A stretch of DNA of 12,366 bases. It comes from Thermomicrobiaceae bacterium. GTDB taxonomy: Bacteria; Chloroflexota; Chloroflexia; Thermomicrobiales; Thermomicrobiaceae. The translations under genes were made by a program, and so were the position numbers. The DNA is taken from contig SKTL01000316.1 of the NCBI GenBank assembly GCA_007122555.1, forward strand, positions 1 through 12,366, written 5' to 3'. The notes under the pieces are model-generated. The model did no database searches, was not told where the DNA came from, and worked only from the letters and a program-made list of their open reading frames with translations. Numbering within the stretch: the stretch's first letter is position 1; each line of letters begins with the position of its first letter. This document shows, in pieces, positions 7,753-10,700 of this stretch.

Positions 7753-10700
7753 TCAGGATGCCTTCGCCGCCTCGGCCGACTCCTTGTAGTTGCAGGCGCG
7801 GCACTTCACGCCGCCACGCCGGCCGGCTTCGACCAGAATGTCATTGCATTCCGGACACCGACGGCCGATCGGTTTGTTCCAGGAGATGAACTCGCATTCC
7901 GGATAGCGACTGCAACCGTAGAACGGTCGTCCCTTCTTGGAGCGGCGTTCAACGACCTCTCCCTCACCGCACTCAGGACATTCAACCCCGACCTTGACCA
8001 GCAATGGCTTGGAGTTCCGGCAATCCGGGAATCCGGAACAGGCAATGAATTTGCCAAACCGGCCAAGTTTGATCACCATCGGTCGACCACACTTGTCGCA
8101 CAGCTCATTTCGCCGTGCTGGCGCGATGTCAACCGGTTCGACAGTGTCGCCCTCGCTCAACTGCAGCAGCGCCTCGCCAACGGCGTTATCGGCCCTGATT
8201 TCAGCCGCGACTTCCGGATAGATCTCCAGGAAACCCCACTTCTCGGCGATACCGGCCTGTGCGACAAACAGGTACGTCGTGCGCGTCGCCGCACTTTCGG
8301 CCTCCATTGTCACCGACACGTTCTCCAGAATCGCTTCGGTCGCCTGCGTCGCGATTAAACGCCGCCAGATCAGGTCATACAGCTTGAACTGGTCGTTCGT
8401 CAGATACGCGCGCACGCTTTCCGGCTCTCTGCCCGGATCGCTCGGCACAACGACGCCGGCCAGTATCCGCTCCTCTGACGCCTCTTCGGGCTGAGCGCTG
8501 TGACCATTCGCCAGCAATGAGGCGCCGTAGTGCGTTCTAATCATCTCCGCGACATGATCCCAGTCCGGCTGCGGCAGATTGCTCGATTTCGTGTGAAGGT
8601 CCGAGATCAGGGAAATCTCTCCCGATCCGTTCGCACTGACACCCTCATACAGCTGCTCAGCAAGCGTCACCGTCTTCACGCTGTTGAAACCGAGATGCTT
8701 CTGCGCTTCGGTCAGCAGGTCATCCTTCGTGAATGGGCGCAGGAAGTTCGTCCGGCGATCAGTCTGAACATCGACCTTACTGACTCGGAACGTCAGCCCA
8801 CGCAGATCATCCACGATCGCGCGCGCCGAAGACTCCTCGGTAAACTCGGCGCTCTTGTTTCCAACGCGTGAGAGCTCCGCGGTGACCGGCATCGTCTGTC
8901 CAAGTAAATCCTCGAGATTGATCGTCGCCTCGACGGTCCAGTAGATGACGGGTTCATCCTTGATCTGGACCTTCTCCATGTTGACTTCGGCCTTCTGCAC
9001 AGCCGGGTGAAAGTCGTTGTAGAACTCCCGGATTACCGGTACCCACTTCCGCTCGCCGGTCGCAATCTCGTCGAGCTCATCTTCCATTTCGGAGGTGAAC
9101 TCGTAATCAACAATCCGCGGGAAGTGCTCCTTCAAGAGCGCATTTACGATCTCGCCGAGCTCCGTCGGGAATAACCGGCGGTCCTCTTCGTTGACGTAGT
9201 ACCGGCTCTTCAGTGTCTGAATCGTCGGGGCATAAGTGCTGGGACGGCCGATTCCCTGTTCTTCCAGCGCCTTGACGAGCGTCGCTTCACTGTAGCGCGG
9301 CGGCGGCTGGGTGAAGTGCTGCTCCGGGAGCAACTTCTGCAGCGCCAGCAATTCCCCCTGCGTCAGCTGCGGCAGGGCATCACGGTCCATCTCATCCTGA
9401 GCGTCATCATCCCGGCCTTCGCGGTAGATGTCGATGAACCCGGCGAACTTGATAACCGAACCAGTCGCCCGGAACATATACGGTTTCTCGCCGCCCGGTT
9501 TGCCGGCATGGATGTCGACCGAGGTGCTATCGAATACCGCATTCCGGGTCTGACTGGCGACAAAACGCTGCCAGATCAGCCGATAAAGGCGATATTGCGG
9601 CTGGCTCAGAAACGGTCGTACCTGCTCCGGCGTTCGAGCAGGATCCGTCGGACGAATTGCTTCGTGCGCTTCCTGAGCGCCTTTCGACTTGCGGGTATAT
9701 ACCGGCGGTTTCTCCGGCAGATACTCCTTGCCGAACCGGTGTTCAATGACCTCACGGGCTCGCTGCTGAGCAGCCGAAGCGACGTTGGTCGAGTCGGTCC
9801 GCATATAGGTGATCAGACCGGTCGTACCTTCTTTGCCCAGATCCACACCTTCGTAAAGCTCCTGCGCCCGGCGCATCGCCAGGCTCGCGCCCATACGCAG
9901 CTTACGCGAGGCTTCCTGCTGGAGCGTACTGGTGGTGAACGGCGCCGAGGGACGGCGCTGGGTTTCCTTCGTGCGAACCTCGGTGACCGAATACTCCGCG
10001 CCATCCAGATCGTTGACGATCGTCATGGTAGACGCCTCGTCGGATAGCTCCGGTTTCTTTCCGTCTACTCGATGAAGCGATGCGGTAAAGGGCATCGGCT
10101 CTTTGTTGCCGTTTCCGCTGGACTGCTGCTGCAGTTCCGCATCGAGCGACCAGTACTCAACCGGCTCGAATTCGCGGATCTCTTCCTCGCGTTCGACAAC
10201 CATGCGCAGCGCGACGGACTGAACACGCCCGGCGGAAAGGCCGCGCTTGACCTTCTTCCAGAGGATTGGACTGATCTCGTATCCGACCAGCCTATCCAGC
10301 ACGCGTCGCGCCTGCTGCGCTTCAACGAGTCGCATGTCGATGTCACGCGGGTTCTCAATCGCCTGCTTCACCGCGTCTGAAGTGATCTCGTTGAACACAA
10401 CGCGATGCACCGGCTTATCACCGGCCTGGGCCGCTTCGATCAAATGCCAGGCGATCGCCTCGCCTTCGCGGTCAGGGTCAGTCGCCAGCAGCACCTCTTT
10501 GGAGTTCTTAACACTCTCTCGAAGTTCCTTGACCACCTTGTTCTTGTCACGAGGCACAAGGTACTGCGGCTCGAAGTCGCCCTCGACATCAACCCCCATT
10601 TTGCTCTTGGGAAGATCGCGGACATGCCCCATCGAGGCCTTGACCGAATACTTCTTGCCAAGATAGCGCTCGATCGTCCGTGCCTTCGCCGGCGACTCCA

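Follow-up and report, generated by a model that had tools for sequence, protein, structure and literature searches.

The window, the whole stretch of 12,366 nucleotides that was analysed, comes from the draft genome of a Thermomicrobiaceae bacterium (2.6 Mb, 538 contigs, 84.6% complete), a family placed by NCBI in Thermomicrobiota. A topA gene at 7753-10797 on the minus strand encodes a protein of 1014 amino acids, which was assigned to bacterial TopA by the TIGR01051 equivalog model (937.3 bits, cut-off 456.4). Pfam models identified a Toprim domain, two Topoisom_bac stretches and two zinc-ribbon stretches in this protein, and both the Toprim acidic motif DPDREGE and the catalytic strand LITYMRTDS are present in the core. 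C4 zinc ribbons, which many but not all TopA proteins have, follow the toroid and were matched by PF01396 in two stretches (95.2 bits); a third, PF02150-like ribbon at residues 981-1009 scored below its cut-off. Only two Topoisom_bac matches were found in the window genome, both in the topA frame (E 7.7e-128 and 2.7e-26). The features of the gene are as follows.

10165-10797, minus strand: residues 1-211, basic N-terminal tail, Toprim and start of the core (domains I/IV); PF01751 at 30-138, TIGR01051
9322-10164, minus strand: residues 212-492, first, catalytic arch (domains II-III); PF01131 at 153-589, aligns to 1cy9
9790-9816, minus strand: active-site strand LITYMRTDS, residues 328-336, with catalytic Y331; core-arch alignment
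8950-9321, minus strand: residues 493-616, remaining core (domains IV/I), ending in KVQIKDEP, which two congeners without the copy also have at this site
8950-8955, minus strand: 5' junction, codons for E615-P616; codon listing
8110-8949, minus strand: residues ~617-896, second, degenerate arch (pseudo-arch); PF01131, BLASTP, hhalign, structure model and ortholog
8584-8610, minus strand: degenerate active-site strand LISDLHTKS, residues 730-738, with D733 at the place of the core's Tyr; alignment
7756-8109, minus strand: residues 897-1014, zinc-ribbon tail; PF01396, two stretches

The neighbours of topA look ordinary: hslV, hslU, a ROK-family kinase, a solute-binding protein, ilvE, a mannose-1-phosphate guanylyltransferase-like gene and the end of a dprA-like gene. 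The genes hslV (7041-7706) and hslU (5597-7057) follow immediately downstream of topA on its strand, with slightly overlapping frames, and the order topA-hslV-hslU is also found in congeners G002 and G003. At 108-1526 the window contains a class-III aminotransferase related to glutamate-1-semialdehyde aminomutase, which scored under the cut-offs of 25 NCBIfam models (25 of the 69 matches).

Homology, predicted fold and active site of the second arch

The sequence-only reading had proposed that residues of about 615-862 repeat the whole domain II-III arch and are placed between a complete core and the zinc ribbons. Homology between the two blocks was confirmed by BLASTP, in which 86 of 274 residues were identical between core and copy (31%; 141 bits, E 4e-43); among 1000 residue-shuffled cores, 333 gave any match at all and the best reached 26.2 bits. 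The copy alone was matched by Pfam PF01131 at 93.8 bits (E 1.5e-26, cut-off 35.1, profile positions 62-310), and its ortholog in congener G001 scored 85.6 bits against the same cut-off. A profile comparison of the kind suggested in that reading, performed with hhalign between a two-sequence profile of the copy and a five-sequence TopA profile, gave a probability of 99.9 and an E value of 4.5e-31. The alignment reproduced the constant offset of 402 residues (PFT 286/688, LYEGV 314/716, LIT/LIS 328/730, IY 457-458/859-860), with the EPV starts at 404, and the placement between core and ribbons agrees with the domain map and with the same site in the congener. The location of the block therefore stands, while its limits are better given as about 617-896, reaching up to the first zinc ribbon (ELCDKCGR).

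A structure of the copy was predicted with AlphaFold2 (pLDDT 90.2, pTM 0.83) from a 52-row alignment comprising the copy, one ortholog and 50 ordinary core arches; because 50 of the 52 rows were core arches, the fold is not independent of the homology and confirms rather than proves it. In a Foldseek search of this model against the PDB, the best 50 of the 56 matches (E <=0.001) were all type IA topoisomerases. The comparison with the E. coli arch that had been proposed gave a match to the 30-kDa fragments 1cy9/1cyy with a TM score of 0.70-0.75 by target and 0.61-0.65 by query, at an rmsd of about 5-6 Å (about 4-9 Å over the best 50 of the 56 PDB matches). According to the model, the second block has the same fold as the TopA arch, with a superposition that is not tight.

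The copy has lost the active site. YMRTDS of the core is replaced by DLHTKS and AHEAIRPT by AGVVVPSD in both carrier species; the Y, R and D of the active strand are invariant among the core-arch rows not gapped at these columns (at least 40 of 50 rows). In all, 18 of the 41 columns conserved in at least 80% of the 50 core arches are kept in the copy. The replacements comprise Y331 to D, R333 to H, D335 to K, Q312 to E, T289 to K, H378 to A, E379 to G and R382 to V, and the second carrier has identical ones except for Arg at the T289 column; its strand reads LISDIHSKS where the window copy has LISDLHTKS. The columns of the catalytic Tyr, Arg and His are thus occupied by D733, H735 and A780 in both species (by alignment, Y331 and H378 of AHEAIRPT correspond to E. 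coli Y319 and H365). Since T736 and S738 of the former active-site strand are kept and the non-catalytic columns F210, F237, M308 and G327 are among those lost, the division is not purely one of scaffold versus active site. The LIT/LIS anchor, which had been described as an active-site strand, holds as a positional match only, because the catalytic Tyr and the Arg and Asp beside it are replaced in the copy. By these alignments, the second arch is a pseudo-arch that lacks the catalytic residues in both carrier species. At its end, the core arch has a charged stretch, REGRDDDAQDEMDRDA, that was aligned with the E. coli loop around RKGDEDR, described in the available text of PMC4678816 as flexible and reaching into the toroid hole; the counterpart of this stretch in the copy is a helix in the predicted model.

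Occurrence and origin of the copy

The second carrier, congener G001, is the metagenome-assembled Thermomicrobiaceae bacterium CSSed165cm_354 (SLMJ01000050.1). Its TopA contains the copy at the corresponding position, with 73-74% identity to that of the window, on a contig that stops inside the zinc-ribbon region, so that the last part of the protein lies outside the data. The occurrence at one and the same position in a separately named record shows that the copy did not arise from the assembly of a single genome. The empty site KVQIKDEPTDEICDKCGR is read straight through in congeners G002 and G003, whose gene neighbours are the same as those of the window where their contigs reach; a fourth congener was left out of site scoring because its contig ends inside the TopA core.

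The layout is rare, in keeping with the earlier expectation. With the copy as query at E <=1e-45, the window genome and G001 were the two genomes matched at each level: among 61 of the order, among 158 of the class and in a sample of 400 from the phylum, where phylum denotes the grouping of the genome collection searched. An earlier phylum sample of 301 genomes, searched less strictly, gave a best E value of 1.8e-39 beyond the window genome, the level reached by the window's own first arch (1.4e-38). A scan of 84,980 species, whose patterns came solely from the beginning of the copy and which may omit the window genome, returned 24 loci, one of which (that of G001) has the copy. Two arch matches within one TopA frame were found in 2 of 83 frames, namely the window protein and its ortholog (in this list one gene was entered twice and one frame is partial). 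The long TopA frames L078 and L081-L084 have one arch match each; the additional sequence precedes Toprim or, in L083, follows the ribbons.

Double matches of other kinds were also recorded. Among the 98 frames with a long arch match in the scanned loci, two non-overlapping matches were present in the ortholog (L033), L165 and L166. L165 (IMG/VR contig, about 3338-4882) is a viral TopA with about 500 inserted residues interrupting its arch. A second arch was ruled out for L165 by Intein_splicing (2e-15) and LAGLIDADG_3 (7e-12) matches lying between its two arch matches, and the insert is, from these domain matches, apparently a TopA intein within the arch. L166, also from IMG/VR, has two arch matches like L165; the scan for intein domains covered L165 alone. 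At a limit of 1e-12, 272 of the 301 genomes of the phylum sample matched, and 3 of the 300 others had two matches; G343, the sole one of the three with both places shown, has them 0.86 Mb apart. Besides the window genome, 5 of 60 relatives had two matches: G001 (second arch and core), G023, G027 and G043 (on different contigs in each) and G055 (two adjoining pieces of one arch). Two separate topA-like genes are present in G343 (L075, L076), G023 (L020, L077) and G027 (L030, L078), and the second topA copies of G023 and G027 form their own branch in the arch tree.

The earlier description of the block as an internal duplication was upheld as to homology; its origin within the same gene is plausible, with an ambiguous place of the copy in the tree. 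The copy is 30% identical to its own core and up to 32% identical to arches of other phylum members; as its own core does not stand out in similarity, self-duplication is plausible without being proved. In the arch tree (67 of 84 rows, 17 having been dropped as near-duplicates, the repeated gene or the partial frame), the copy fell in a poorly supported fork of phylum arches on a saturated branch of 7.8 changes per column. So long a branch, set against two congeners without the copy, points to a burst of change, an older origin, loss or transfer. Constraining the copy beside the five cores of the genus was 0.27 log units worse (p-AU 0.46), and beside the cores of the two carriers 4.87 log units worse (p-AU 0.33). 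Genus-diagnostic sites gave no information on its origin: a derived state was matched in 1 of 6 columns, at the junction itself, and in 0 of 8 in the other set, with one mixed. The two carriers and the two non-carriers diverged within a very short span, as judged from TopA without the insert and from 11 concatenated segments; for the latter, pairing the carriers was 5.4 log units worse and was not rejected (p-AU 0.25). Given this near-simultaneous split, gain followed by loss is as good an account as gain in the carriers alone.

The 5' junction reads KDEP/TDEIC in non-carriers, FEP/VEYW at the start of the arch and KDEP/V(I/T)YW in carriers, so that an EP dipeptide is common to the host site and the arch start. 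A crossover at the EP codons would fit this junction, two codons being weak evidence. Recombination at the same codons could also have brought in an arch from another type IA topoisomerase, either of another lineage or a lost paralogue, and we regard such a source as possible though the less probable one. The equal similarity of the copy to arches of distant phylum members and its ambiguous place in the tree speak for it; however, grouping with the genus's own arches costs only the 0.27 log units given above, and the base composition of the copy is that of the remaining topA gene. No donor was found among the phage (12) and plasmid (60) records matching the copy, all of which were below 60% identity (31% at best among the six listed of each), and a scan of viral contigs with patterns from the first residues of the copy found no relative. 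Self-duplication remains the simplest plausible source on the sequence comparisons, and a foreign source, which concerns origin, is compatible with every functional reading considered below.

Selection, charge and possible roles

Between the two carriers, the copy gave a dN of 0.177 and a dS of 1.79 (NG86), a ratio of about 0.1, and the first arch a dN of 0.077 and a dS of 1.89, the dS of 1.8-1.9 being saturated for both arches. The dN of the copy is about 2.3 times that of the first arch, and identity is 74% versus 88%. These values indicate that the copy is under purifying selection and, because it is clearly constrained, the second arch very probably has a function. As the catalytic residues are lost and selection nevertheless keeps the copy, it probably has a structural role or binds a partner and does not act as another gate.

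The copy contains 25 basic and 45 acidic residues and the first arch of the window 38 and 41, so the acidity of the copy is due mainly to fewer basic residues and not to more acidic ones. Its net charge is -20 in both species; core arches range from -10 to +19 (n=82, 80 distinct). Where the first arch of the window has an aligned basic residue (n=37), the copy has 7 basic, 25 neutral and 5 acidic residues, and it has gained 20 basic residues at other aligned positions. Per 100 residues, the charge is -7.1 for the copy and -6.2 for HslU of the window; since HslU is similarly acidic, the surface of the copy may be closer to that of an ordinary soluble protein than to one that binds nucleic acids.

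We favour, with moderate confidence, an inserted arch, most simply the gene's own, that is degenerate, maintained by selection and most likely used as a non-catalytic spacer and/or docking module. A segment coding for the domain II-III arch of TopA would have been inserted in frame where the catalytic toroid meets the first zinc ribbon, no later than in the ancestor shared by two species of one Thermomicrobiaceae-type genus. Since the arch forms a compact lobe, that of E. coli having been crystallised as a separate 30-kDa fragment, the protein may accommodate it, bead-like, between toroid and ribbons. The copy would then have lost the catalytic Tyr and many basic residues and been kept by purifying selection, leaving a module that provides a longer, reoriented link from gate to ribbons and/or a face for a protein partner. 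We infer the duplication route, the absence of DNA binding and the spacer or docking role from these comparisons. In E. coli, the C-terminal domains of TopA bind ssDNA, and the flexible linkers within these domains, together with contacts between core and ribbons, have been proposed to move the passing strand (PMC4678816, available text); TopoI binds RNA polymerase through its CTD and zinc domain (PMC9352719, available text).

Among the other roles, an autoinhibitory or gate-regulating one is unlikely. The pseudo-arch would dock, like the real arch, on the Toprim/domain IV face or on the protein's own ssDNA groove, and hypernegatively supercoiled DNA would displace it. The copy is paralogous to the arch, which in the ordinary enzyme docks on the Toprim domain, its negative charge could mimic DNA and it is strongly conserved in both species; however, the active-site residues, which lie at the interface of the real arch, are among those lost, and a single-sequence model of the full window TopA (pLDDT 36.5) is too poor for placing the copy on the toroid.

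The DNA clamp or processivity element put forward in the sequence-only reading, in which the second arch would bind the passing or flanking strand and raise processivity, lost ground and is now improbable. Its appeal lies in the position of the copy beside zinc ribbons, whose E. coli counterparts bind ssDNA (PMC4678816, available text), and in the retained arch fold. Against this, both species have lost the active-site residues and much of the basic complement (38 to 25 in the window); at the 14 columns that are basic in at least 60% of core arches, the copy of the window is basic at 4 and the first arch at 9. These losses weaken the clamp and favour a putative spacer or protein-docking role; the partner-binding surface that the sequence-only reading also named may thus still be correct. 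A built-in pseudo-gate may be imagined as a further, rather doubtful, role: the inactive acidic arch would take the docking place of the real one, on the toroid of the same or an adjacent molecule, and set the time for which the gate is open or the substrate accepted, which might be, for example, RNA-polymerase-linked, hypernegative DNA. A neutral, decaying insertion or an assembly error without function is very unlikely, for although the copy evolves faster than the first arch and the two carriers known are both draft assemblies in many contigs, the frame is open in two diverged species with a dN/dS of about 0.1, the junctions are the same in both and the predicted fold is of high confidence.

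Comparison with known type IA topoisomerases

All cells have type IA topoisomerases, whose catalytic toroid is strongly conserved. With its second arch, this known enzyme has a new domain architecture in a single small clade of uncultured bacteria. That a core lobe was repeated, silenced and kept shows that the domain II-III arch can serve as an insertable module. The clade would offer a natural test of what may sit between gate and ribbons, with the ordinary layout seen in sister species, and removal of one defined block should restore that layout.

Compared with bacterial TopA as represented by TIGR01051 and by PF01131, PF01751 and PF01396, the window protein has the same toroid core, catalytic motifs and zinc-ribbon tail, and adds a degenerate domain II-III arch between core and ribbons. 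The E. coli 30-kDa fragment (1cy9, 1cyy), which comprises domains II-III, is the same lobe with limits similar to those of the inserted block; it is an excised piece of the catalytic arch, whereas the block of the window is a natural second copy without the active-site Tyr.

The variation described for type IA enzymes in the available texts consists of small C-terminal repeats and accessory domains, and a TopA with a second arch was not found described in the open-licence literature, including the available parts of the surveys PMC9369019 and PMC10969213. Chlamydia TopA has a C-terminal SWIB domain resembling eukaryotic SWIB (PMC12445093), and the C-terminal lysine repeats of actinobacterial TopA are said to give high processivity (PMC7398561). 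As far as the available text of these two sources goes, both are likewise lineage-specific C-terminal regions, but the block of the window is derived from the core and poor in basic residues. Closer in kind is the expansion of the Topo_C_ZnRpt and Topo_C_Rpt repeats, partial gene duplication having been proposed as a source of change in the C-terminal region (PMC9369019, available text); there small DNA-binding repeats multiply, whereas in the window TopA about 280 residues of the core are repeated. Where both repeat types occur, the same text places the zinc repeat always behind domain IV of the toroid; in the window TopA, by contrast, about 280 residues of an apparently inactive arch stand between domain IV and the first ribbon.
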